Below are positions 4,727 through 39,158 of a DNA stretch of 64,000 nt, piece by piece. The stretch's first letter is position 1. Each line of letters starts with the position of its first letter. The notes below the pieces were generated by a model that saw nothing but the letters and a program-made list of their open reading frames with translations, searched no databases and was not told where the DNA came from. Source of the stretch: Candidatus Epulonipiscium viviparus (GTDB taxonomy: Bacteria > Bacillota > Clostridia > Lachnospirales > Cellulosilyticaceae); the NCBI RefSeq assembly GCF_030708075.1, contig NZ_CP117982.1, forward strand, positions 248,001 to 312,000, written 5' to 3'. Made by a program: the position numbers and the translations under genes.

Positions 4727-5476
4727 TTATAAAATATTAATAAAATGCAATGTTTTAAAATCTTTATCTATATAAAACTTAGAATATTTTTCTGATACTA
4801 CGCAAAACTCCCTAATTAAATCTTTAGGCGCATCGAAATAATATAACTCTTTCAAAGGAGCATTTAAAATATAGCGTATAGCGTATATTGTTCCTATGTG
4901 AAGCTTTATTTTTTTAGTATCTCTAACACAATTATTACATAATAAGCCTCCATCTTCTATCGAAAAAGCGTAACGGGTATGCTTGTCCAAATAATGCAGA
5001 TCTGTTTCGCAATTGGTGCAGCTATAAACATTTGGTAAATATCCTAGATATTTCATAGCCCTCATTTCAAACACGAATCGAATTAGTTTAGCTGAAAGTC
5101 TATGTTTAGTGAGCTCATGTAAAGTGTATAATGTAAGTGTTAATAAATTTTTATTACTAGAGTTTTCCTGCGTAACTTCATTTAAAAATTCTGCAATAAA
5201 GCTAGCATAAGATAGAGTGGTGATATCTTGGCGTAAATTGTGGAATGACTTTATTATTTCTACATTTAACAGTTTGTATGTATCTCTAGTCTTTTTTACG
5301 CTAAAATTTCCATAAACAAACAATTGAGTGCCAGAAGCTAAACCACGGTTATAATGTTTAGCACCTTTGGCCGAAACATCAATTTTTCCAAATTTATCAC
5401 CAAAAAGGGCGATATACTTATCACCCTCTCCAACAGTAAACTCCTTAATTACAAGTGCTTTCATACTTAAAATCAT
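4727..5476 (-). CDS. recO: DNA repair protein RecO
   Basis: A 249-residue RecO, which loads RecA onto SSB-coated single-stranded DNA with RecR in recombinational repair. The N-terminal OB-fold is seen in KALVIKEFTVGEGDKYI and GKIDVSAKGAKH; the C-terminal helical domain carries a zinc knuckle, CTNC followed by CNNC (roughly residues 155-185). The position directly after era and the yqzL-like gene is the classic Firmicutes order. The ATG touches the stop of the yqzL-like gene (TAAATG), indicating translational coupling. An in-frame Met at codon 5 is a possible alternative start. Confidence 0.93.
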   Translation of the reverse strand: MILSMKALVIKEFTVGEGDKYIALFGDKFGKIDVSAKGAKHYNRGLASGTQLFVYGNFSVKKTRDTYKLLNVEIIKSFHNLRQDITTLSYASFIAEFLNEVTQENSSNKNLLTLTLYTLHELTKHRLSAKLIRFVFEMRAMKYLGYLPNVYSCTNCETDLHYLDKHTRYAFSIEDGGLLCNNCVRDTKKIKLHIGTIYAIRYILNAPLKELYYFDAPKDLIREFCVVSEKYSKFYIDKDFKTLHFINIL

Positions 5477-5593
5477 TTAGTCACCATCTTCTTCATCCTC
5501 ATCTTTTTTATTTTCACTATTTTCATGTTCTTTGTAGGCTAAGTAATTCTCAATACTTCCAGTGTCTGTAAAATCTTTCCAATAGTCTGCCAT
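5477..5593 (-). CDS. YqzL-like small protein between era and recO
   Basis: A 38-residue protein with an excellent ribosome binding site (AAGGAGGAGTATTCTT before ATG). It begins MADYWKDFTDTGSIENYLAY and ends in a strongly acidic tail (DEDEEDGD). The W-x-x-F-x-x-TG-x-I-x-x-Y-L pattern matches what I recall of the YqzL family, short proteins of unknown function lying between era and recO in Bacillus and relatives. The stop abuts the recO start. The gene position and motif together support the assignment; the function is not known. Confidence 0.8.
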   Translation of the reverse strand: MADYWKDFTDTGSIENYLAYKEHENSENKKDEDEEDGD

Positions 5594-5686
5594 AAGAATA
5601 CTCCTCCTTCATAACCATAAAATATTACACTGCGTTAAGATAGGATGCACAATTTTATATTATAAAATACAGGAACTTTTTGGGAA

Positions 5687-6598
5687 TCATTCCAGTAAAT
5701 TCTCTTTACTATACCCGTAATTTTTTAGTAAAAACTCACTATCGCGCCAATTTTTCTTGACTTTAACCCAAAGGCTTAAAAAAATCTTTGAACCCAATAA
5801 ACGTTCAATATCGCGTCTAGCATGAGTTCCGATACTTTTTATCATTTGACCATTTTTACCAATAATAATTTTTTTATGAGCATCACGTTCGCAGATTATA
5901 GTGGCTTCTATATCTACCATATCACTTTTATCACGCTTGCGCATTGAGCTAATTTCTATGGCAATGCCGTGAGGTATTTCTTTGTCTAAAAGATGCAAAG
6001 CTTTTTCGCGAATTAATTCTGCCACAAGCTGTCTTTCTGGTTCATCTGTAATCATATCTTCTGGAAAAAACTTTGGTCCAGCTGGAAGATATTTTGAAAT
6101 GCAGTGGATAAGCGCATCTACGTTGGTTCCTTCGTAAGCAGAAATCGGAATCACTTCTGCAAAATCCATAGAATCTTTGTAGCATTCAATGCTATCTATT
6201 ACTTCTTGCGGATCTTTTCCGTCTATTTTATTGATGCATAAAAATACAGCAGAATTGACAGACTTCAGTTTTGAAATGATTTCTTCATCTAATTTTCCGA
6301 TTCGCGTATCTGTTTCTATTAAAAATAAAATGATATCAACTTCATTTAGTGTAGTGTGGGCAGCTTTAACCATAAACTTTCCGAGCTCTGTGTTTGGCGT
6401 ATGGATTCCTGGTGTATCTATAAAGACGGCCTGAAAATCGTTTGTGGTAAGAATAGTACGCACCTGGTGTCTAGTAGTTTGAGGCTTGTTAGACATGATA
6501 GCAATCTTTTCACCCACTAATCTGTTCATAAGTGTTGATTTACCAACATTGGCGCGCCCTATTATGGAAATAAATCCCGATTTAAACTCTTTTTTCAT
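5687..6598 (-). CDS. era: GTPase Era
   Basis: A 303-residue Era GTPase that binds the 3' end of 16S rRNA and acts in 30S subunit maturation. The G domain shows G1 GRANVGKST, G3 DTPGI, G4 NKID and G5 ISAYEG; the C-terminal KH domain carries the RNA-binding segment IIIGKNGQMIKSIG. Length is typical. An AGGAG lies six bases before the ATG. It follows ybeY by 12 bases, so the two 16S-maturation genes are co-transcribed. Confidence 0.96.
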   Translation of the reverse strand: MKKEFKSGFISIIGRANVGKSTLMNRLVGEKIAIMSNKPQTTRHQVRTILTTNDFQAVFIDTPGIHTPNTELGKFMVKAAHTTLNEVDIILFLIETDTRIGKLDEEIISKLKSVNSAVFLCINKIDGKDPQEVIDSIECYKDSMDFAEVIPISAYEGTNVDALIHCISKYLPAGPKFFPEDMITDEPERQLVAELIREKALHLLDKEIPHGIAIEISSMRKRDKSDMVDIEATIICERDAHKKIIIGKNGQMIKSIGTHARRDIERLLGSKIFLSLWVKVKKNWRDSEFLLKNYGYSKENLLE

Positions 6599-6610
6599 TT
6601 TTTTCTCCTA

Positions 6611-7072
6611 TTATCTAGTAATTTTAAGTGTTTCTAAAACACAATCTTGCTTAGCAAACATGATTATTTCATCGTCTTCTGTCATATGATCATAGCCCAA
6701 TAGATGAAAGCAACTATGAGCAATTAAAAAGCAAATTTCTCTTGCCAAAGAATGATTATAAGCTACAGCTTGCTCCTTTGCAATATCTAAGCATATGATA
6801 ATATCGCCAAGAATTACTACGTCTGCAGAATCTACAAACTCTGATTGCGCTTCAAATTGAGGAAAAGATAGAACATCAGTGTCTCTATCTATTTCTCGAA
6901 AATCACGGTTAATAGTTTTTATAGTTTCTTTATCAACTATACTAAGACTGATTTCGATATCATTTGATATATTTTCTAATTTTAAACATTCTTCTATAAC
7001 TTCTATAATCTTTTGCTCGAGCTTTGGCTCAAGAACAAATAAACCTTCTTGGTCATCTATATCAATGTGCAT
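6611..7072 (-). CDS. ybeY: Endoribonuclease YbeY
   Basis: A 153-residue single-domain metal-dependent RNase involved in 16S rRNA 3'-end maturation and ribosome quality control. The diagnostic zinc motif H-x3-H-x5-H is present near the C-terminus (HSCFHLLGYDH), preceded by the conserved DVLSFPQ segment. The start codon immediately follows the stop of pgpH (TAAATG), indicating coupled translation. Confidence 0.94.
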   Translation of the reverse strand: MHIDIDDQEGLFVLEPKLEQKIIEVIEECLKLENISNDIEISLSIVDKETIKTINRDFREIDRDTDVLSFPQFEAQSEFVDSADVVILGDIIICLDIAKEQAVAYNHSLAREICFLIAHSCFHLLGYDHMTEDDEIIMFAKQDCVLETLKITR

Positions 7073-9154
7073 TTACTTTTTTTCCTTCTTTTCTGGGTAT
7101 TCTATTCTTTCGTGATACATAGCGTTTAAAGTTCTGGTGAAGCTTTGTATAATCTTTTCTATATCTGATAAAAATAAATTACATTCACTAAGCTCTCCTA
7201 TATCAAGTTGCTGTTTAACCATTTTGCGAACAAGATCTTCTATAGTAAAATCTGGACCCAATTTATTTTGCATAGAGCGAGTCGTAGCTTCTATAATATC
7301 TGCTAGCATTACAAGAGCCGCTTCCTTAGTTTGTGGTCTTGGACCTGGATATGTGAAATCTTCTTCCTTGATGTTTTCTGTACCAGTATTCTGAGCTTTT
7401 ATATAGAAGTATTGCATAACGCTACATCCGTGATGCTGTAAAATCATATCTTTTACACATTCTGGTAAATTGTATTTAGCAGCAATTTCAACGCCCGTTG
7501 TTACATGTGAAATAATGATGTTGGCGCTAGATCGAGGATCGAGTGAATCATGTGGGTTTCTGGATCCTTGATTTTCTTTAAAATAATTACCACAAGTGAG
7601 CTTACCAATATCGTGATAATAGCCACCAACGCGAGCTAGTAAGGCATTGGCTCCAATTTCATCAGCCGCTGTTTCGGCTAAATTGCCAACCAATAAACTA
7701 TGATGATATGTTCCTGTGGCTTCTAATAGTAGTCGCTTTAAAATTGGTTGATTTGGATTTGTAAGTTCTAGTAATTGAAACCGAGTTACAAAATGAAATG
7801 CGCTTTCCCATAGAGGTAAGCTTCCACCCACTAAAATTACAGAAAAGACTCCAATACCAACAGCGATTAGCATATTGTAAGCTAAATTGATGGTAAGCGG
7901 CATATCAATTAGTAATACCATCGCAATATACACGCTACCATATATAATTCCCAAAAAGCCTGCAACTTTGATCATATCTTTTCGTTCAATCATTTTTACA
8001 ATAATAAAGACACTCATAATCCCTGTAATAAATTGATACAAGATGGTAGTCATGTCAGCTTTATACATAAGAGAATAGACTACTAAAATTACAAAATGAA
8101 ATACACAAGCAATTTCTTTATTTAGAAGTAAAGCAATTATCATAGCTCCTATAGCAAGAGGGAATTGAATAAATTGTAGCCCTAGCATAAGTCTTGCCAC
8201 TATTAGCATCATAATATACAATACAAATAATAAATTTTGTCCTTCTGGAGTTAAAAACGATTTAAAAGCCGTCACTCGCAAAAATGATATAACAAACACA
8301 TAAAGAATGAGTATCATAATAAAAACGCCAATATATGGAACAAAATTATCAATATTATTGGTGCCTATAATACCACTGTCAATTAGTAATTGATAGGATT
8401 CTTCTGTTATTTTACTTCCTTTTCCAATAATTTTTTCGCCTTCTTCGACCATAACTGCAGGGACACTAGATCTTTTAATATGGCGAGCCTCTTCGGTGGC
8501 GTCTTTATCTAAAACTAAATTTGTTACAAGTTGATTATCTATTATATTGTTAACTAAAGTTTGATAAACTGGCGATATACCAAATTCTAATATCATAGAG
8601 TTTATATCAAGCTTTTCGAGATCTTCTGCAGAAACGCCCTTATTATTATATATCTGTTTAAACAGAGCCAGTATTCGCTCTTCTATTTGAGCTAACGTTT
8701 CAGGCGGAATATTCAATAGCATTTCATACTGACTATTAACAAGTGATAAATGAGATTTTTGTTGTAATATTTGTGAGTAGTTTATATTTGTGGCAATATA
8801 ATTTATTCTAAGTTGTTTTTGAACAGAATCAGGAATCTCTAAAGGAGGGTATTGCATCATAGCAATAATCTCCTCTGTATAATTAAATAATGATTCTGTA
8901 TCTGATAGTATATTTTGTAAAACTTGTTCATCGATCATATATATATCATCTACTGAATTTGCTGCCAATTGTTTATTATGTTCCGTTAATTTTGTATTTT
9001 CGAATTTAAACGGAGCAAAAAAATCCGTAGGTACAACACTACCTATCTGGAATTCTGATTTTCTATCGAATAAATTTCCAGTCACTACTGCTAAAAACGT
9101 GAACGCCATACTCAGCCAAATAAATATTGCCCTGGTATTTGATTCCTTTTTCAT
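7073..9154 (-). CDS. pgpH: PgpH/YqfF-type cyclic-di-AMP phosphodiesterase (7TMR-HD)
   Basis: A 693-residue membrane protein of the 7TMR-HDED/HD class; the PgpH homologue in Listeria degrades c-di-AMP. Order: an N-terminal membrane anchor, a large extracellular domain (about 40-270), seven membrane helices (about 275-470), then a cytoplasmic HD domain. HD landmarks are HHSLLVGNLAE, YYHDIGKL and a later HH pair (ILQHHG). The position between phoH and ybeY matches yqfF of Bacillus. It is the likely c-di-AMP turnover enzyme here; no cyclase gene is in the window. Confidence 0.92.
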   Translation of the reverse strand: MKKESNTRAIFIWLSMAFTFLAVVTGNLFDRKSEFQIGSVVPTDFFAPFKFENTKLTEHNKQLAANSVDDIYMIDEQVLQNILSDTESLFNYTEEIIAMMQYPPLEIPDSVQKQLRINYIATNINYSQILQQKSHLSLVNSQYEMLLNIPPETLAQIEERILALFKQIYNNKGVSAEDLEKLDINSMILEFGISPVYQTLVNNIIDNQLVTNLVLDKDATEEARHIKRSSVPAVMVEEGEKIIGKGSKITEESYQLLIDSGIIGTNNIDNFVPYIGVFIMILILYVFVISFLRVTAFKSFLTPEGQNLLFVLYIMMLIVARLMLGLQFIQFPLAIGAMIIALLLNKEIACVFHFVILVVYSLMYKADMTTILYQFITGIMSVFIIVKMIERKDMIKVAGFLGIIYGSVYIAMVLLIDMPLTINLAYNMLIAVGIGVFSVILVGGSLPLWESAFHFVTRFQLLELTNPNQPILKRLLLEATGTYHHSLLVGNLAETAADEIGANALLARVGGYYHDIGKLTCGNYFKENQGSRNPHDSLDPRSSANIIISHVTTGVEIAAKYNLPECVKDMILQHHGCSVMQYFYIKAQNTGTENIKEEDFTYPGPRPQTKEAALVMLADIIEATTRSMQNKLGPDFTIEDLVRKMVKQQLDIGELSECNLFLSDIEKIIQSFTRTLNAMYHERIEYPEKKEKK

Positions 9155-9175
9155 TTGAACACCCCAAACTTAATG

Positions 9176-10141
9176 CTATTTTTTTGGACCATTGAGATAA
9201 AGTTCATATGCGTCAACAATTTTTTGTACTATAGGGTGTCTAATTACATCATTTCTATCTAAATGACACATCCCAATACCGCTAACATTGCTAAGAACTT
9301 TATAAGCTTCAAACAATCCGCTATGTTGATTACTAGGCAAATCGATTTGAGTCATATCCCCAGTAACAACGGTTTTTGAATTAAATCCTAATCTTGTTAA
9401 AAACATTTTCATCTGTTGAGGAGTTGTATTTTGAGCTTCGTCTAAAACGATAAAAGCATTATTTAGTGTACGTCCTCTCATATATGCAAGAGGAGCAACT
9501 TCTATAAGTCCCTTTTCCATATTTTTATCAAAATTTTCTGGTCCCATAATTTCAAATAATGCGTCATAAAGAGGTCTTAAATAGGGATCAACCTTGCTTT
9601 GCAAATCTCCAGGTAAAAATCCAAGTTTTTCACCCGCTTCTATAGCAGGTCGTGTTAGGATGATTTTACTAACTTCGCCACGTTTAAAACTATCGACTGC
9701 CATCGCCATCGCAAGATAAGTTTTGCCTGTTCCGGCAGGACCCATTCCAAATACGACCATGTTTTTTTTGATAAGTTCTACATATTTTTGTTGACCACTT
9801 GTTTTTGCTTTGATTGGCTTTCCTTGATAAGTAAGAGTTACCACGTTTTGATTCACATGTGTTAAATCTTCTTGACGATTTTTTGTAATGGCTCCCAAAG
9901 TGTAATCAACTAGCTGCTCATCAATTTGATCACCTTGTTCTGCAAAGTGTATAAGTTCTTTTATAACATTACTTGCGAGTTTAACGTTTGTTGTTTCGCC
10001 TAAAATTTTAATACTTTCACCGCGCATTACAAATGTAACATCTAGTTCTTTCTCTATTTTTACGATGTTACCATCCATATTTCCGAAAATTACAGATACA
10101 TGATTGGTTGGTATATTAATTTTCTTCTCAATTCCTGCCAT
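9176..10141 (-). CDS. phoH: PhoH family ATPase (PhoH-like, YqfE/PhoH)
   Basis: A 321-residue PhoH-type P-loop ATPase with an N-terminal KH-like region. Walker A is GMGPAGTGKT, Walker B FIVLDEAQN, and the conserved segment DPYLRPLYDAL lies between them. PhoH proteins are linked to RNA metabolism through their operon with ybeY; the exact activity is uncertain. The ATG at 10141 is preferred to the GTG six bases upstream because the GGAG then lies at a normal distance of eight bases. Twenty-one bases separate it from pgpH downstream. Confidence 0.93.
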   Translation of the reverse strand: MAGIEKKINIPTNHVSVIFGNMDGNIVKIEKELDVTFVMRGESIKILGETTNVKLASNVIKELIHFAEQGDQIDEQLVDYTLGAITKNRQEDLTHVNQNVVTLTYQGKPIKAKTSGQQKYVELIKKNMVVFGMGPAGTGKTYLAMAMAVDSFKRGEVSKIILTRPAIEAGEKLGFLPGDLQSKVDPYLRPLYDALFEIMGPENFDKNMEKGLIEVAPLAYMRGRTLNNAFIVLDEAQNTTPQQMKMFLTRLGFNSKTVVTGDMTQIDLPSNQHSGLFEAYKVLSNVSGIGMCHLDRNDVIRHPIVQKIVDAYELYLNGPKK

Positions 10142-10162
10142 ATTCACTGCTCCTATTCTACG

Positions 10163-11386
10163 TTAACTTAATTGAGGTGATGCGAGACTCATTTGGGGCT
10201 CGCTATTTATTGGTTGCTCTATGCTGATATCTTCTTCTACTATAGCATTTAATACACCATATACAACACCATCTACTGTGCTATAAGACATTTCTTTGGC
10301 TATTATTTTACCAGTTTGACCGATTTTTTTCAACAAATTATCATTTAACGCTCCTTCTAGTTTATCAATAATTTCTGTTTCTGTCCTGGTAGTTATTTGT
10401 TTTGTATACGGAACTTGATCTGTACGTATCCAATAAAACGGAAGAGGAAACATACTGGTAAGTTTTAATTGATTTATTGTAACTAATGTATCTATATTTT
10501 CAGTGAACTCGTCTTTAGTACCTAAATTAAATTGAGTATCAAAAAGTTTTATACTATAGGTTGTCTTATAATCTGCTAAATATACTTTTTGATCTTTATC
10601 TAGTGGCAAAGAGGCTTCTAATGTGTATGGCGTTCTTGCCACTATGGCGGCATCTGCATTTACATAATAAGCGTCTATTACCAAGTCGCTTTCTAACGTA
10701 ACTACTCCAGTAACCAATATATCACCCTTTTTAACGGTATCTCCTTTTTTTACAAGAGGAGTTCCCGAATTTGTGGCAATATATGTAATAATTCCATCTC
10801 TGGTTGCAACGATATTGGTAGGCTCAGTTTCGTTATGTATTATGGGTTTTGGCACAGCTTCCGTAATTTGAACATTAAGTTTTGTGCCTTGAAAACTAAT
10901 TCCAGTCCATAATATTTCATTATGTTGATTAATTAAGTATTGTTCTGCTTCTCTAAGATTTAACTTACTTTTTAAAACTCCGGTAGTATAACCGCCTTCT
11001 CTTAATGTTTGGATGATATCAGTTTCCTCGAGAATATCATTTCCTTCAATTTCTACAAGCCACACAAAAGAAGTTAAAAACCAAAAGAAAGCTACAAATG
11101 CAACGCCCCCTATTATAAACACACTTCTTTTTCTATATTTAAAATTAATAAATGGTAGACCACATTTTTCTAAGATTGAAATTCGGCATTTAGCACGAAA
11201 TACAATGGCTTTTAACTCTTTAAATCCATCCATAGAAGTTTTTAAAACAACTTTATTACCATCAGACTGAGCGTCCCAAAAATAAATGCCTTGATTTAGT
11301 GCTCCATTTAGTAGTTTTTCGATCCGTTCTCCACTGATTTCTACTATAACGTATCCTTTTAAATAATTCCATAAGTATACAAACAT
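10163..11386 (-). CDS. yqfD: Sporulation protein YqfD
   Basis: A 407-residue membrane protein of the YqfD family, expressed in the mother cell during sporulation in Bacillus and linked to the spore cortex and coat programme. One membrane helix at about residues 90-112 (IIGGVAFVAFFWFLTSFVW) follows a cytoplasmic N-terminal part. The large extracytoplasmic part has family landmarks ITEAVPKP and a biotinyl-lipoyl-like segment PLVKKGDTVKKGDILVTGVV. It pairs with yqfC directly upstream, which is good evidence that the organism forms endospores. Confidence 0.93.
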   Translation of the reverse strand: MFVYLWNYLKGYVIVEISGERIEKLLNGALNQGIYFWDAQSDGNKVVLKTSMDGFKELKAIVFRAKCRISILEKCGLPFINFKYRKRSVFIIGGVAFVAFFWFLTSFVWLVEIEGNDILEETDIIQTLREGGYTTGVLKSKLNLREAEQYLINQHNEILWTGISFQGTKLNVQITEAVPKPIIHNETEPTNIVATRDGIITYIATNSGTPLVKKGDTVKKGDILVTGVVTLESDLVIDAYYVNADAAIVARTPYTLEASLPLDKDQKVYLADYKTTYSIKLFDTQFNLGTKDEFTENIDTLVTINQLKLTSMFPLPFYWIRTDQVPYTKQITTRTETEIIDKLEGALNDNLLKKIGQTGKIIAKEMSYSTVDGVVYGVLNAIVEEDISIEQPINSEPQMSLASPQLS

Positions 11387-11416
11387 CTTTTATCTTCCTC
11401 CTTGTTTTGGGGAGTG

Positions 11417-11707
11417 TTAATTTAAATTTACTCCAGATATTTTACCTCGTATTACTATTTCTTCTTTGGTCATACTTTTGGCTAACAAATTTTTTCCTAT
11501 GATAGAAATAACACCAATCTTGGTTTTAAGTCTAATAATCTCTTGGTTATATTCTATTATACTAGAAAAATTTTCAACTCGTAGGTTATCTTCACCAATG
11601 ATAGTTATTAGGGGGAGTCCAATTATTGATTCTTCTACTCCATCGATTGATGATATAAAGTTTTTAAACGTTTTGGTTAGTTCTTTTATTGTTAACCGTT
11701 GGCTCAT
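11417..11707 (-). CDS. yqfC: Sporulation protein YqfC
   Basis: A 96-residue YqfC-family protein, the conserved partner of YqfD in spore formers. The sequence matches the family in ITIIGEDNLRVENFSSIIEYN and the terminal repeat of short beta strands (IRLKTKIGVISIIGKNL, IVIRGKISGV). Biochemical function is unknown. It is the first gene of the long minus-strand operon that continues to about position 2378; the next upstream gene on this strand ends 151 bases away. Confidence 0.9.
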   Translation of the reverse strand: MSQRLTIKELTKTFKNFISSIDGVEESIIGLPLITIIGEDNLRVENFSSIIEYNQEIIRLKTKIGVISIIGKNLLAKSMTKEEIVIRGKISGVNLN

Positions 11708-32705: not shown

Positions 32706-33473
32706 ATGGCAATAAACTCAATTACAGGCTTTCAATCCTCTATTAACAATCCTCAAAATCAAAACATCAATAGAACAAGAGAACTTCAACGAGAACGCGA
32801 AGAAAGAAACGAAGAACTTTCAACCGGAAAAAAGGTTAATGAAGCAGCAGACAATCCTGCAGTTATGGCAATAGCCACTAAAATGGTATCAGCATATATT
32901 GGATTAAATGCACAAAGTAATAATATCGAATCCGAAATGAGTCGTTCTAATGTTGCCGATGGTGCTTTGAGTGATTCTCAAGCTACTTTATCTCGGATGA
33001 ACGAACTTGCACTTCAAGCCAATAACGGAATTTTAACTGATGAAGATCGGTCCTATATTCAGATGGAAATGGATCAACTAGGGGAACAATTAGGATCAAT
33101 TTCTAAAAATACAGAATTTAATACCAAAGCCGTATTTGATGAAGAAGGTATTGATTTCAGTGAAGATACTTTAGGTTCATTTAGTGTTGATGTGACAGAT
33201 CCTAATGCACTTAGCCAAATTCGTGGAATGTCTTCTGCTGTTAGTTCGATGCAAGCCGAAGTAGGAGCAGACTACAATGCAAATGAATCAGAAGTAAGAT
33301 CTAATAATATTACTGCAGAAAATACCATGGCTGCTGTTAGCCAAATGCAGGATACAGATTATGCCGAATCCACTAGTGCAATACTTAAAAACAATTTATT
33401 AGATCAATATAGGTTACAAATGCAAAGTCAAATGCAAACTCAAATGATAAATCAGATGAGCATTATGCTGTAA
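32706..33473 (+). CDS. Flagellin-like protein
   Basis: A 255-residue protein with both conserved ends of flagellin and almost no variable middle. The N-terminal D0/D1 region shows LSTGKKVNEAADNPAVMAIA, DGALSDSQATLSRMNELALQ (flagellin landmarks); the C-terminal helix shows AENTMAAVSQMQDTDYAEST and ends in a glutamine/methionine-rich MQSQMQTQMINQMSIML. Typical flagellins have a longer middle and end in LLR. It may be a minor filament or cap-adjacent subunit, or a surface fibre subunit. AGGAGG precedes the ATG and a sigma-D-like promoter lies upstream. No other flagellar structural gene is in the window. Confidence 0.85.
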   Translation: MAINSITGFQSSINNPQNQNINRTRELQREREERNEELSTGKKVNEAADNPAVMAIATKMVSAYIGLNAQSNNIESEMSRSNVADGALSDSQATLSRMNELALQANNGILTDEDRSYIQMEMDQLGEQLGSISKNTEFNTKAVFDEEGIDFSEDTLGSFSVDVTDPNALSQIRGMSSAVSSMQAEVGADYNANESEVRSNNITAENTMAAVSQMQDTDYAESTSAILKNNLLDQYRLQMQSQMQTQMINQMSIML

Positions 33474-33604: not shown

Positions 33605-34357
33605 ATGGCACTTGGTCTAAATTCCGATATGAATTATTCTATACAAAACAATGACAGAAATGCTGATCGTGCTACTGCACAAATTCGAGAAATTCAACAA
33701 AATCTTGAAGAGCGACGTCAAGAACAGGCCACCGCAGAAGCATTACCGCAATCAGCTAATATTCCCACCGGACTCTCTGTAGGATCTAGAATGGTATCCG
33801 CTTATATTGGATTAACTGTCGAAACTTCAAATGTAGAAAGCCAAAACGAGAATTACACTTCTGATAATAGTGCTTTAAACACCACTCAAACCGCAACTAA
33901 CACGGCTCAGAATTTTACATTAACTCAAAATAATATTTTAACTATTCAGCCACCCGAAGATACCACTAGTTTATATACTACCGAAGAAGAAGAAGATGCC
34001 TTGGCTTTATACGAAGACACTCCTTCTCCTCAAGAGGAACTAGAAGCTAGAATCATTGAATCACGTGCAGAAAGAGAAGCAGAACAAGAAGCACTTACCA
34101 GTGAAAGAGAAGCAGAACTTAACGCACAACAAGCTGAAACATCTCAAGAAATTAGCGAAATGCAGGAAGAGACACTTGAAGAAAATATTAATGCTGAAAA
34201 TATAGCTGCCACCGCTAATACTAATGCCACTACTGCAGCAACCAGTACAACATTAAAAACCAATTTATTAGATCAATATAGATTTCAAATGCAATCTCGT
34301 TGGCAAACTTCTGCTATGAACATGATGAATCAAATGTCTACTTTATTTAATGTTTAA
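33605..34357 (+). CDS. Divergent flagellin-like paralogue with acidic coiled-coil middle
   Basis: A 250-residue paralogue of the preceding gene. Shared pieces are SRMVSAYIGL near residue 60 and the C-terminal LKTNLLDQYRFQMQSRWQ with NQMSTLF at the end. The usual flagellin D1 motifs are worn down to repeated T/N/Q residues, and the middle (about 125-205) is an acidic E/R/A/Q-rich helix (ESRAEREAEQEALTSEREAE) likely to form a coiled coil. It has its own AGGAGG site and sigma-D-like promoter, so it is a separate transcription unit ending at a terminator. A filament-associated or structural role is inferred only from the paralogy. Confidence 0.7.
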   Translation: MALGLNSDMNYSIQNNDRNADRATAQIREIQQNLEERRQEQATAEALPQSANIPTGLSVGSRMVSAYIGLTVETSNVESQNENYTSDNSALNTTQTATNTAQNFTLTQNNILTIQPPEDTTSLYTTEEEEDALALYEDTPSPQEELEARIIESRAEREAEQEALTSEREAELNAQQAETSQEISEMQEETLEENINAENIAATANTNATTAATSTTLKTNLLDQYRFQMQSRWQTSAMNMMNQMSTLFNV

Positions 34358-34364
34358 GTTCAAG

Positions 34365-34390
34365 AAGGGCAGAACTTTTGCCCTTTTTTA
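34365..34390 (+). terminator. Terminator between the flagellin-like gene and hemW
   Basis: AAGGGC and GCCCTT close a hairpin followed by TTTTTA. It can also serve the convergent hemW gene, whose stop lies inside it. Confidence 0.85.
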
Positions 34391-35512
34391 TAAAAAGCTT
34401 GCAAATACAGTATTCGATATATCTATTCCAAAATTTGTAAGATAAATATTTGTTTCATTTTCTATTAAAGCTTTTTCGTTTTTCCATTTATTTATTTCAT
34501 ATCCATAAATTTCTTCAATATTTTTACCATACCTATTTTTAAAATCTTTTTTACATATTCCTCTAATCATTCTTAGTCCCAAAAACATAAATTCTTCCAT
34601 ACTCATTTTGTTTGTTATAACATCTTCTTCTTTTATAATATCTGTGCCGTGATCTATTCCTTGTATATATTTTTTCAAATCATCTGTGTTTGTATATCTT
34701 ATATTATTTAAATATCCACTAGCACCCAACCCTACACCAATATATTCATCTAATGTCCAATAGAGAATATTGTGTTTACATTTATACCCATTTTTAGCCC
34801 AATTCGATATTTCATATTGAAAAAATCCATATGAACTTAATATTTCTTTTGCAGTAGCATACATTTGTCTATCTACATCTTCAGATGTAATTAAAAATAA
34901 TCCATTCTTGTAATCATTATAGAGCTTTGTATTTTTTTCTAAAATCAGCGCATATGCTGAAATATGTGTAATAGGATACTGACTGACCCTTGCAAGAGTG
35001 CATTTCCAATCATGCAAAGTTTGAGACGGCAATGCAAACATTAAATCTGTATTTATATTTGTAATCCCTATGCCTAATAAATCATTAATGGTATTTTCCC
35101 AATCTTCAAAAGTGTGAATTCTGCCTATTTTTTTTAACAAATTATTGCACGAACTCTGTAATCCTAAACTGACTCTATTTATACTCGTATTTTTAATTAT
35201 TTGCAAATGTGATTTAGTTAAAGTTCCCGGATTTACTTCTATTGTCCATTCTATATCTTTATCTAAAATAAAATTATCTTCAATTACTTCACAAATTTTA
35301 CTCAATAAATTTACCGATAAAGCAGTAGGAGTTCCACCACCTATAAAAATAGTATTGATTTTTCGTTTAACTTTCCTACTATATCTTTTTAATTCTTCAA
35401 CTAAAGCACTGACATATACATCTTCTAACGAATTATCTGCAATTGATAAAAAATCACAATAATAACATTTTGATTGACAAAATGGTATGTGAACGTATAA
35501 TCCTGTATTCAT
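34388..35512 (-). CDS. hemW: Radical SAM HemW-like protein
   Basis: A 374-residue radical SAM protein of the HemN/HemW group. The cluster motif C-x3-C-x2-C is in HIPFCQSKCYYCDF; the SAM-binding glycine segment IFIGGGTPTAL and the EVNPGT segment follow. HemW proteins are now seen as heme chaperones rather than coproporphyrinogen oxidases. The start is uncertain: the ATG at 35512 begins right at the conserved NTGLYVHIPFC, while in-frame ATGs at 35554 and 35530 would add up to 14 unusual residues; none has a strong ribosome site. Confidence 0.9.
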   Translation of the reverse strand: MNTGLYVHIPFCQSKCYYCDFLSIADNSLEDVYVSALVEELKRYSRKVKRKINTIFIGGGTPTALSVNLLSKICEVIEDNFILDKDIEWTIEVNPGTLTKSHLQIIKNTSINRVSLGLQSSCNNLLKKIGRIHTFEDWENTINDLLGIGITNINTDLMFALPSQTLHDWKCTLARVSQYPITHISAYALILEKNTKLYNDYKNGLFLITSEDVDRQMYATAKEILSSYGFFQYEISNWAKNGYKCKHNILYWTLDEYIGVGLGASGYLNNIRYTNTDDLKKYIQGIDHGTDIIKEEDVITNKMSMEEFMFLGLRMIRGICKKDFKNRYGKNIEEIYGYEINKWKNEKALIENETNIYLTNFGIDISNTVFASFL

Positions 35513-35576
35513 CGTCGCAACTCTTTTCATTTTCTTATTTATAAGTGTAGACATTTTTTTTTAATTATATGCAATT

Positions 35577-38500
35577 ATGTTTAAAAAAATTTTTTCATGG
35601 TCATACTACAAAAAAAAACAGAAATGGAATAAAACCGTGAATAAAAATTATTTAGGATTTGTATTTGAATTAGGATTTAACATGGGAATCGCATCATGCC
35701 TAGAAGAAAAAATGAAAAACGAAGTTAAAATTCATCTTAAGGATGAATCTTATATACGATCTGCAGTATATTCAACTTATACAAAAGACATCACTGATGT
35801 TAACGAACAAAATCTAATAAAGCAAAATATAGACTATCTGTTATTTAAAGGAATACTTTCTGGAAAAAATTTCTTTAAAGAATGGTTAAAAACCAAGGTT
35901 CATGATCGAGAATACAAATTGGAATATTTTCAAGCTAATTTTAAAAATGTATTTGGTCAATTCAATCAACAAGACCAAAAAGAGTATTTTATTAATTCTC
36001 TAGAAACTCAACTTCAAATAAAGTTAAATGTTACAGAACGAGAATCATTATTTTTTAAAGGACAAGTTTTACGTGCCGATACTATAATTTTAATTTCTGT
36101 CAGTCAAAAATACTATTTATGCGTAGTAGATAATGCCATTAGTGTCAGCCATATCCAAGATTATTCAAACTTAGAAAATATAAAAAAAATTTTTCAGCAT
36201 TCTATTTATTCACAAGTCAGCAAAAGTCAATTTAGTAATCTAGCAATAGATGGTGTAGATATTTCTGATATGAATATTTCTGAATTACTCAATAATTATA
36301 TGATTGGATTAGCATCAAAAGAGAAACCTTTATTAAAAATGATTCAAGCCGGTAGTTATGCCTATAATTTTATCAAATTATTATTTACTAAAACTACTAT
36401 ACAACATCTCACAAATATATGTATCGTTGGATATACAGATTCAGAAGTTTGTAGTTGTAATTTAACAGATAGTCAAATAGATATTTTAGAAACTTGTTTT
36501 AAACATTATTATTATTCAGATAAACAACATAAAACAACTACATTTGAAGATAAAAATAAAGACTTATTTAGTAGAGTTAGATCTAATTTCAAACAATTTT
36601 TCAAGTTGGACGAAAATACATTAAATAAACTTGTTAATTTTAAACCGGTATCGTTCACAGAAACATTTGATGATTTTCAAAATACAGCTGCAAAGTATAC
36701 ATTTGAAGAAGACACAGATACCCTGAGAAACATTCATGCAAAACAAATTTCAAAGTATATTGCAAATAAAGATGTTCAACTATTATTTTTAACTGGAAAT
36801 CCAGGAATTGGAAAAACTACTGCAATTGTAGAATATCTCAAAAAAGAAGAGGGATTTTTATTTTTATACTTAAGTCCTAGAACTCAAGTAAATAATGATA
36901 TATTAGAAAAGTTTTTAAATAATAATAAATTATACACTGACGATGCTGTATATTTAACAGCAAATAGTCAAGAAGAAAAAAATATTAATGGAGTAAATTT
37001 TTTAGCATCTAATCCTGAAAAATATATATCTGTTAAAAGTGATATTACTTTTTTACCTATTGATAATAAGAAAAAAATTTTATATTCGACGACGAAATTC
37101 AAGGAGCATAATGATACAATTTTTTCTAAAGCTGCAGAACATAATTTAGGTGTGTTATCCAAACTGACAAAAGCTATTAATTGTGTAATTTCCAATAACT
37201 TAAGCAATAAAATTATATCAACAGCTTGTATTCAATCCCTACGAAAATGTTCAAGCGGAAAATCAACAGCAACGCATATCAAAACTATATTCGATACATT
37301 TTATAACGAAAATACACGTCAAGTAAAAAATTTTGATAACTTTGCTATAAAATTTCAAAATGTAATTATAATGGTAGATGAAATAACAGGTGATGGTGCC
37401 GGAATAGCGTTCTTGGATAATTTAATTAAATTAGTTTATCGACAAATTTATGACGCTATACCGCACAATGAAAAACATAAAGTAAATTTCAAAATACTTG
37501 TAGCAGATGCTTCTATTACCAACATAAAAGTCATTGAACAACACTTTAGAAATAGTCTTGGTGATAATAGTAAAATATATTTCAACAAAAATAAACAATC
37601 AAACAAAGAATTAGAAATATTTAACTTTCAATTTAGAAATAAATATAATTCTATCTGTATTAACACTAATTCTTATCCTGCTAATAAGTTATCTATAGAA
37701 TACGATTTATTACTCCAGACTTGTTTTGTCCCAGATGTATCTACTATATCTACCAATATAAATAATAATAATCTCAATGATAAGATAAGTAATGAAGCAA
37801 TCGATATTATCGCTTCTAAAAGAGCCAAACAAGTTATTATATATATACAAAATTTAAATAGATTAGCACAAATTTCAGAGATAATGAATATTAAGTATTT
37901 AAAAAAATTTGGTACACAAATGATTAAAAATACAGACTATATTATTATTAATTCTATTTTATCTGATGCAGAAAAAGCCAATGTACTCAAATATAAAGAT
38001 CAAGTTAAATTTGTATTAATGACATCTTCAGCTAGTAGAGGTATCTCTTTTCCAAATACCACTCGAATACTAATAGATGTACCTAATTTTAATATTGAAC
38101 ACAATTTAATGGAAATTTTACAATTAATATATAGAGGCAGAGGTGGTAACCTTGATTTTACAACAAAATATTTAAAATTTTTTATCAACGATACGATTTT
38201 TTTCAATGATTCTTTGGATAGTACTAGGATTCAAAAATCTTTGATAGGATTATTTACCATGCTAATAATAATCAAAATCGCTATTTTAACACGAATTTAT
38301 GGCAGTACTAAATTTAAAAATCAAAATATTTCATTAATACCAACCGGTGAAAAAGCAATAGACTCATCTTCAACCAGTCTAATTGAAACATTAAGTTCTT
38401 TAATTATACAATTAAAACGAGCTTATCGCAGAGATCTAACCAATAAGAATCTTGAAAATATAATTCATCAATTAACAGAAACTTTTTCTTCTATTAGTAT

Positions 38501-39158
38501 CCATACTCAAGGAGAAATTTTTAATAATACTTCATTAAAGAAAATTCAAAATAATTTTCATACTGTATGGGATAATGGTATGGACAAATTATTAGATTTT
38601 AACCCTTTGATAGAACCTATTATTTTAGGAGATTTAATGATTTTTCCACTTAAATGTAGCATAGAGAGTTTTTTGCATTTTAACAATGAAATTATTCGAA
38701 AACAATTTATAGACAATAATTTACGTGAACAACTTCTAGAACAGATTCAATATAATGACAATATACCAAATACTATAAAAAAAGACTTAAACACAGCATT
38801 AGATACATTAATCCATGTGTATACAAGTAATATATCTAAAAAACTTCAAGATATTACTTGTAATGATTCAATGTTTATAGCTATGCCTATCATAGGTATT
38901 TTTACTTTTTCAGAATTTGAAGCTTTTACCGAAAATACACTAACAAATAACAGAAATACATTTAAACAATTATTGTATTCTTATTTAAGATCTCATTATA
39001 ATATAACTGGTGTATTACCTATATCCAGTAATTACGAGAATGTCCCTTATATACTTTTTAAAAGCAACAACTTACAAGCTATTCGCAACAAAATATATAA
39101 TGACAGATATATTTTCTGTTCAAGAGAATTAAATTTATTGAATTTACTTTTAATATAA
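35577..39158 (+). CDS. Unrecognised 1193-residue helicase-like P-loop protein
   Basis: I do not recognise this family. Visible motifs: Walker [10 protein letters not shown] (407-415); Walker B IIMVDEIT (Asp601-Glu602); a motif-V-like segment [13 protein letters not shown] (815-827); and a motif-VI-like QLIYRGRGG (849-857). That order and spacing fit a superfamily-2-type helicase or translocase with two RecA-like lobes (about 400-870). The first 390 residues contain RADTIILI (Asp168) then LCVVDNA (Asp185), which faintly recalls a PD-(D/E)xK nuclease core with the last lysine lost. The final 320 residues are helical. No membrane segments or signal peptide. No Shine-Dalgarno precedes the ATG; an alternative start is Met36 (35682) with AGGA upstream. 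It stands alone between hemW (divergent) and a chemoreceptor. Confidence 0.75.

Follow-up and report, generated by a model that had tools for sequence, protein, structure and literature searches.

Introduction

What does a seemingly solitary, 1193-residue helicase-like protein of no recognised family do in a giant bacterium? The question is raised by one gene in a 64,000-nucleotide stretch of the Candidatus Epulonipiscium viviparus genome (NCBI RefSeq assembly GCF_030708075.1, contig NZ_CP117982.1, positions 248,001 to 312,000 of the forward strand), which was analysed as a whole and is called the window here. The gene, termed H, is located at 35577-39158 on the plus strand of the window (C1:283577-287155 in the genome, G000) and encodes a superfamily 2 (SF2) helicase with a nuclease-like N-terminus. 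A first-pass annotation made from the sequence had described a lone gene with a weak translation start and had proposed a single-gene defence or DNA-processing system. The single open frame of 1193 aa was confirmed, and the H of locus L027, from a Candidatus Epulonipiscium viviparus record, matches it at 99% identity along all 1193 residues, while the single-gene proposal was overturned: H is the second component of a two-gene P-H system, of which P is the Argonaute-fold partner. This system is real and widespread, and its Argonaute half was formerly without annotation. With a probability of roughly 0.6, we consider that P and H together form a two-component, guide-directed nucleic-acid interference system, most likely acting against plasmids and other invading DNA.

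Pairing, distribution and transfer of P and H

Conserved pairing, linked presence and absence, exact two-gene transfer, predicted folds and invariant motifs are what the analysis shows directly. Relatives of H were collected from one genome per species across 84,980 species, which gave 213 relatives, and 79 loci were kept. In these relatives a large unannotated gene encodes P, a partner protein of 950-1200 aa; 72 of the 79 loci have it upstream of H and in the same orientation. The two genes overlap or touch in 29 of the 72 (13 by exactly 4 bases) and are separated by 1-100 bp in 28, by 101-1000 bp in 11 and by more in 4; 57 loci thus have them overlapping, touching or within 100 bp. For five of the other seven loci P was present elsewhere in the genome (two Epulonipiscium genomes, L041, L051 and L056), and no P was found for the last two, namely L035, where H itself is broken, and L049, where H starts at the contig end. 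P and H are apart in the genus Epulonipiscium (g1) and adjacent in G012, G014 and G022. The genome of the window carries P as an intact 955-aa open reading frame (ORF) at C1:2146553-2149408, far from H. The solitary position noted at first therefore holds for this locus only, as the partner lies elsewhere in the same genome and directly upstream of H in most relatives.

The presence of the two genes is linked. H was detected in 6 of the 24 genomes of the window's family, and P in the same six. Among 290 genomes of Cyanobacteriia (class searches with E limits of 1e-5 for P and 1e-10 for H), 22 carried H and 23 carried P, including all 22; the extra P (G137) is a fragment of 116 positions. The P and H distances were strongly correlated over the 71 pairs of loci with both genes at full length (r = 0.977, against a maximum of 0.32 in 999 permutations), and shared host ancestry contributes to this value. 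The hosts of H include Cyanobacteria, both filamentous and unicellular (Crocosphaera), Ktedonobacteria, Proteobacteria (Acinetobacter, Cupriavidus and Acetobacter) and Epulonipiscium. The classical Piwi family (PF02171) was found in 21 of 145 cyanobacterial genomes and pPIWI-RE (PF13032) in 3 of 145, so in the cyanobacterial samples P-H is about half as frequent as classical prokaryotic Argonautes (pAgos) and several times as frequent as pPIWI-RE.

A housekeeping helicase kept at one locus in all relatives had been named at first as the counter-possibility. H was present in 1 of 341 genomes of the class Clostridia, namely the window's own; it was absent from the 340 others and patchy elsewhere, and the housekeeping reading was rejected. 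A phage gene was likewise rejected: neither H nor P was matched in any of 50,697 phage records, and no viral contig gave a confirmed match.

Eleven of 72,556 plasmid records (from cyanobacteria, Acinetobacter, Cupriavidus and Acetobacter) contained H, mostly with P directly upstream. P was located on 6 plasmids, all typed as conjugative, and was 97.8-100% identical on 5 plasmids whose hosts are Trichormus, Aulosira, Microchaete and Tolypothrix. When the Trichormus and Tolypothrix plasmid stretches of about 19.6 kb were compared, the sole shared DNA was located at 4919-11658 in both, a block of 6,740 bp with 97.6% identity that begins 32 bp ahead of P and extends one base beyond the H stop. The mobile unit can therefore be just P and H. 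A Fischerella contig shared a longer block of 9.4 kb with the Trichormus plasmid, ending at the same H stop.

Several arrangements of the pair were also observed. A close and a distant subtype of P-H are both present in the cyanobacterium G157 (C111 and C329). P and H lie about 330 kb apart in G043, a cyanobacterium of the distant subgroup (C1 ~118,000-120,600 and ~450,300-452,850; L187 and L167), a case independent of the Epulonipiscium split. In G164 both genes are present and broken by many stop codons, as a decayed copy (C1 ~2,059,792-2,063,703). The order P-H-P-H was found in Microcoleaceae UBA11344 (L090, 511-10683) and P-H-P in an uncultured cyanobacterium (L081, 6083-15794), and these tandem copies suggest repeated duplication of the pair. 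In Okeania (L104, 5786-7295), the interval between P and a full H holds three fragments of 61-73 aa, spaced by about 660 bp, that match the H model and look like a repeated duplication of one part of H.

Predicted fold and catalytic positions of P

The structure of P was modelled with AlphaFold2 on the protein of Epulopiscium Nuni2H (947 aa, 48 sequences), which is 42% identical to P of the window's genome; the predicted local distance difference test (pLDDT) score was 85.8 and the predicted template modelling (pTM) score 0.87. A Foldseek search of this model against the PDB gave 34 matches at E <= 0.001, with a best E of 2.6e-6, and ranks 1-33 are Argonaute/PIWI entries, 32 of them by title; 4kpy, the title of which carries no protein name, is presumably such an entry as well. 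Rank 34 is a yeast CKM entry, which holds Med13, and Med13 is described as a PIWI protein (PMC3702460). VIA-align 2 listed 50 chains, of which 48 are Argonaute/PIWI by title and two (4kpy and 8xih) have titles without a protein name. The best match (4n41_A) reached Z 11.6 with a root-mean-square deviation of 4.4 over 310 residues, within a range of 4.4-4.8 over 310-331 residues. Best Z values of 7-8 are common for unmatched models with this program, and the 11.6 of P, with one family filling the list, is above them. The predicted structure of P thus has the Argonaute MID-PIWI fold. All 48 rows have G626, S644 and Y646 in the MID part, and 97% have Q625; the QG pair is kept in all nine of the wider set, and a K stands fifteen residues before it in 68% of the 48 rows.

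Two points of sequence comparison weigh against this assignment. Six P proteins gave no credible Pfam match of any kind, and none at E <= 1 to Piwi (PF02171) or the pPIWI-RE families, and PADLOC was silent, leaving the fold of a predicted structure as the sole link of P to Argonautes. The P profile scored 20.3 against 15 cyanobacterial pAgos (16.3-19.1 in ten column shuffles) with an hhalign probability of 0.18%, a non-significant result in a test of low power that also gave just 20.6 for pPIWI-RE (3 sequences) against pAgo. P would thus escape searches with Piwi models.

The Argonaute catalytic positions were placed on P with the help of its secondary structure and motifs. All 48 rows keep D675, which ends the first PIWI strand, but YIAKAPY stands at the second site and R888 takes the last position in 95%. 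On this mapping, P looks catalytically impaired in most members. The last position is E in three distant rows (L012, L013 and L015; Acinetobacter and Acetobacter plasmids), and the Acetobacter P has a D near the second site, so some members may be active cutters, which also counts against an inactive P.

The SF2 motor and nuclease-like N-terminus of H

The features of H, all on the plus strand, are arranged as a nuclease-like part, a two-lobe motor and a tail. The motor covers residues 381-876. The first RecA-like lobe (36717-37736) holds Walker A (36795-36821, residues 407-415) and the Walker B stretch MVDEITGD (37371-37394, with D601-E602), and the second (37758-38204) holds motif V, RGISFP (38037-38054, residues 821-826), and motif VI, QLIYRGRG from residue 849 (38121-38144). 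K413, D601, E602, R821, Q849, R853 and R855 do not vary among the 49 homologues, and the motor motifs listed in the first-pass annotation are well borne out. The AlphaFold2 model (49 sequences, pLDDT 83.6, pTM 0.83) places an SF2 core at about residues 381-920, and the 50 matches listed by VIA-align 2 are all SF2 proteins (among them DEAH, Ski2-like, RIG-I-like and RecQ-type helicases; Z 14.2-15.7). Motifs and model agree that H carries an SF2 core, with two predicted RecA-like lobes that bear Walker A, DExx, motif V and a motif VI containing arginine. Pfam gave DEAD (E 3.6e-5) and Helicase_C (E 0.0015), both under the family cut-offs; no match was found in NCBIfam and PADLOC, one marginal match only in PHROGs, and marginal matches only among PDB sequences (9g44_A, E 0.0027 across the Walker A region). 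The C-terminal part (38214-39155, residues 880-1193), a tail of about 315 residues, is mixed helix and strand and ends in a conserved ELNLLNLLL helix, in which N1186 is invariant in 49 of 49 homologues.

The N-terminal nuclease-like region covers residues 21-365 (35637-36671), with the nuclease-like motifs at 168-261. RecB-type exonucleases carry D, (D/E)xK and QxxxY, and the motifs of the H N-terminus resemble them. D168 (36078-36080) is kept without exception in the 49 rows and in a wider set of 12, and position 185 (36129-36131) is always acidic, with D in 49 of 49 and, in the wider 12, D in 8 and E in 4; both aspartates had been singled out at first and hold up as motifs. The helix K250-x3-K254-x2-Q257-x3-Y261 keeps its four named residues in all 49 and all 12 rows. 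In the model a strand pair is followed by this helix, D168 standing before the first strand and D185 in the second. No Pfam match was obtained for the N-terminus and no hhalign signal against PDDEXK_1, a profile comparison too weak to decide, and the N-terminal part alone gave nothing credible against PDB sequences (best E 0.11).

Two residues after D/E185, the 49 and 12 rows have S or A, in rare cases Y or T, and none has K. The canonical (D/E)xK lysine is therefore absent from every row examined and the nuclease may be dead, a point against cutting by H. From the alignment, either a helix lysine (K250 or K254) substitutes for it or the nuclease-like domain is dead. A possible, somewhat doubtful alternative follows from the second case: the same P-H complex with H as a nuclease-dead translocase, which would strip, unwind or block its target and leave the destruction to host nucleases or replication failure. 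For DdmDE, the plasmid elimination system of Vibrio cholerae, it is likewise open whether host nucleases finish the job (PMC12409362). Against a dead domain stands the invariance of D168, D/E185, K250, K254, Q257 and Y261 in different phyla although overall identity is only about 20%; this suggests that an active site has been retained. Between two Epulonipiscium genomes, synonymous and non-synonymous changes numbered 2 and 5 in H and 5 and 8 in P, too few for their ratio to be rested on.

Comparison with known Argonaute-helicase systems

In DdmDE, DdmE is an inactive pAgo with DNA guides that recruits DdmD, and DdmD consists of an N-terminal SF2 helicase and a C-terminal PD-(D/E)XK nuclease (PMC12409362). 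P-H is similar in having two genes, an apparently inactive Argonaute-type protein and an SF2 helicase with a putative PD-(D/E)XK-type domain. In DdmD, however, the helicase comes first and the nuclease last, whereas H has its nuclease-like part first, a motif VI of QxxYRGRG and a long tail. In ApsAB, an anti-plasmid system of E. coli, ApsA has a central helicase, a C-terminal nuclease with D...DVK, a Walker B of DELH and a motif VI of QAVGRVER, and ApsB is Argonaute-like, with the MID motif Y[X]3K[X]nQG[X]nK, and reported to be without an RNase H fold (PMC11096173). A helicase-nuclease (a putative one in H) with an Argonaute-like partner is common to both systems, and so is the QG with a K before it in ApsB and P; in contrast, H has DEITGD and QLIYRGRG, and the MID-PIWI match of the P model extends to the RNase H part. 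The pPIWI-RE system has three genes in the order restriction endonuclease (REase), DinG-type helicase and pPIWI-RE, with conserved R and E (PMC3702460). Like P-H, it combines in a single operon a PIWI module, an SF2 helicase and a domain of restriction-endonuclease type (putative in H), and its distribution is patchy, whereas P-H has two genes with PIWI first, no DinG-type match and no pPIWI-RE Pfam match. Classical pAgos are alike in the predicted MID-PIWI fold; P differs in lacking a Piwi match (6 scanned), in an N-terminal part unlike that of pAgos and in its fixed helicase partner. Helicases in pAgo operons have been noted by earlier surveys (PMC6299218).

Membership of P-H in pPIWI-RE, DdmDE or ApsAB was rejected, as the defining features that could be tested (domain order, motifs, gene order and Pfam) disagree. 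No PDB chain named DdmD or DdmE, which we take to be present in that database, was matched by the H profile (to E 10) or the P profile (to E 5), and no such chain was among the 50 matches listed for the H or P models, which excludes nothing. PADLOC gave no DdmDE-type match for H or P, the presence of such models in its library being unchecked. No description of P-H was found in the literature searched (including with six family protein accessions), a coverage that leaves out most subscription journals and preprints.

Proposed mechanism

The analysis is best explained by P-H working like DdmDE and ApsAB, but as a lineage of its own in which the nuclease-like domain occupies the opposite end. 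P would hold a short guide strand in its MID-PIWI cleft and pair it with invading DNA. It would not cut, its PIWI catalytic positions being apparently lost in most members, and would instead recruit H. H would load on the opened DNA, translocate by its ATP-driven SF2 motor and destroy or displace the target; cutting would be done by the N-terminal nuclease-like domain if K250 or K254 of the QxxxY helix replaces the missing canonical lysine. In this scheme we infer that P binds a guide, has lost its catalysis and recruits H, that H acts as a nuclease, and what the biological target is.

Probably, an Argonaute and an SF2 helicase-nuclease were brought together in P-H independently of DdmDE/ApsAB and of pPIWI-RE, which would make it the third such union; its domain order is reversed, its catalytic lysine would have moved, and it occurs in Cyanobacteria, Ktedonobacteria, Proteobacteria and the giant Epulonipiscium. 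If so, the pairing of an Argonaute with a helicase-nuclease arose more than once, and a widespread Argonaute-type system was missed because its Argonaute half matches no sequence model. It would be a guided DNA-targeting machine of new layout and a defence candidate for very large and filamentous bacteria.

Genomic context and alternative functions

The proposed mechanism is drawn from anatomy and analogy, and a mobile role in DNA processing is likely. The points counted for defence are the patchy presence, the conjugative plasmids, the transfer as an exact unit and a layout common to proven anti-plasmid systems. Several observations weigh on the other side. Homologues in defence islands had been suggested as a check, and the outcome was negative for chromosomal cyanobacterial copies: their 128 neighbours showed no excess of defence genes, with PADLOC families at 112 against 216 for 128 controls, and a defence-island location was rejected for these copies. 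Twenty of the 22 cyanobacteria with H (all but G164 and G270) supplied the neighbours, with at most 7 genes each and genes above 900 aa left out; 132 were chosen and 4 false frames inside P removed, 145 controls from the same genomes or some of them were cut to 128, and the listing covered the top 25 families. Frequent neighbours include purS/purQ-type, fur and pheT genes. The H tree (n = 71, quick method, several long branches) largely follows cyanobacterial families, which is more vertical than usual for defence genes. It keeps Cyanobacteriota, Chloroflexota and Bacillota apart, with 2 changes in all, which suggests for these 71 sequences that spreading from one phylum to another was old or rare. 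Acinetobacter plasmid copies adjoin Fic, HigB, DUF4011, HNH and WYL genes, which is an uncontrolled observation.

The same tree and the housekeeping neighbours would also suit a host function rather than defence, such as DNA upkeep (R-loop clearing, repair or copy control) in giant or filamentous bacteria with many genome copies. Epulonipiscium, filamentous cyanobacteria and Ktedonobacteria are among the hosts, and these are polyploid or multicellular. We regard a host function as unlikely, however, since only 22 of 290 Cyanobacteriia and 6 of 24 members of the window's family carry H, the pair occurs on conjugative plasmids and in Acinetobacter, Cupriavidus and Acetobacter, it has moved as an exact two-gene block, unicellular Crocosphaera is a host too, and the pair is broken in G164.

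An RNA or RNA-DNA hybrid target, on which H would serve as an R-loop or RNA motor, is quite unlikely. Hybrid targeting has been proposed for pPIWI-RE with its DinG helicase (PMC3702460). The best motor matches of H among those listed are DEAH and Ski2-like RNA helicases, tied with RecQ-type DNA helicases, and an SF2 core alone cannot tell RNA from DNA. The N-terminal motifs of H resemble those of RecB-type DNA exonucleases, which speaks against RNA. That H acts alone and its pairing with P is historical can be largely dismissed: the genes are apart in Epulonipiscium and G043, but all of these genomes still keep P, the P and H distances track each other, and P of the window's genome is intact over 955 aa.

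The H locus in Epulonipiscium

In the two-component system as it occurs in Epulonipiscium, P and H are separated and H has its own promoter-like site. This site, a perfect sigma-70-type consensus match (TTGACA-16-TATAAT, 35474-35501, plus strand), is located inside the 5' end of hemW on the opposite strand, and H may therefore be transcribed on its own. The chance of such a perfect match is about 0.02 by our rough estimate. Promoter-like sites in the whole scan numbered 38 against 34.2 +/- 5.8 in shuffles, which is no excess. The weak start noted at first is probably a mis-set one: homologues begin around residue 23 of the window's H, residues 1-20 of the model have pLDDT below 50, and a GGAA lies seven bases 5' of GTG 35637, so translation probably starts at this GTG rather than at ATG 35577.

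The unrelated neighbour hemW (TIGR00539) occupies 34388-35554 on the minus strand. The two are on different contigs in G009, where C3 carries hemW and C18 carries H; H has thus moved and is without a fixed place in the genus. Beyond hemW, at 33605-34357, a 250-aa ORF without a Pfam or NCBIfam match above cut-off adjoins a gene for a 255-aa flagellin-like protein (32706-33473), which has both the N- and C-terminal flagellin domains of Pfam and hardly any middle. Near P in the window's genome (L106, 3525-5922) there are two adjacent genes whose products, on our own reading of them, resemble a membrane protein of the MotA/TolQ type and a partner of the OmpA type; G009 has a similar pair near its P (L108).

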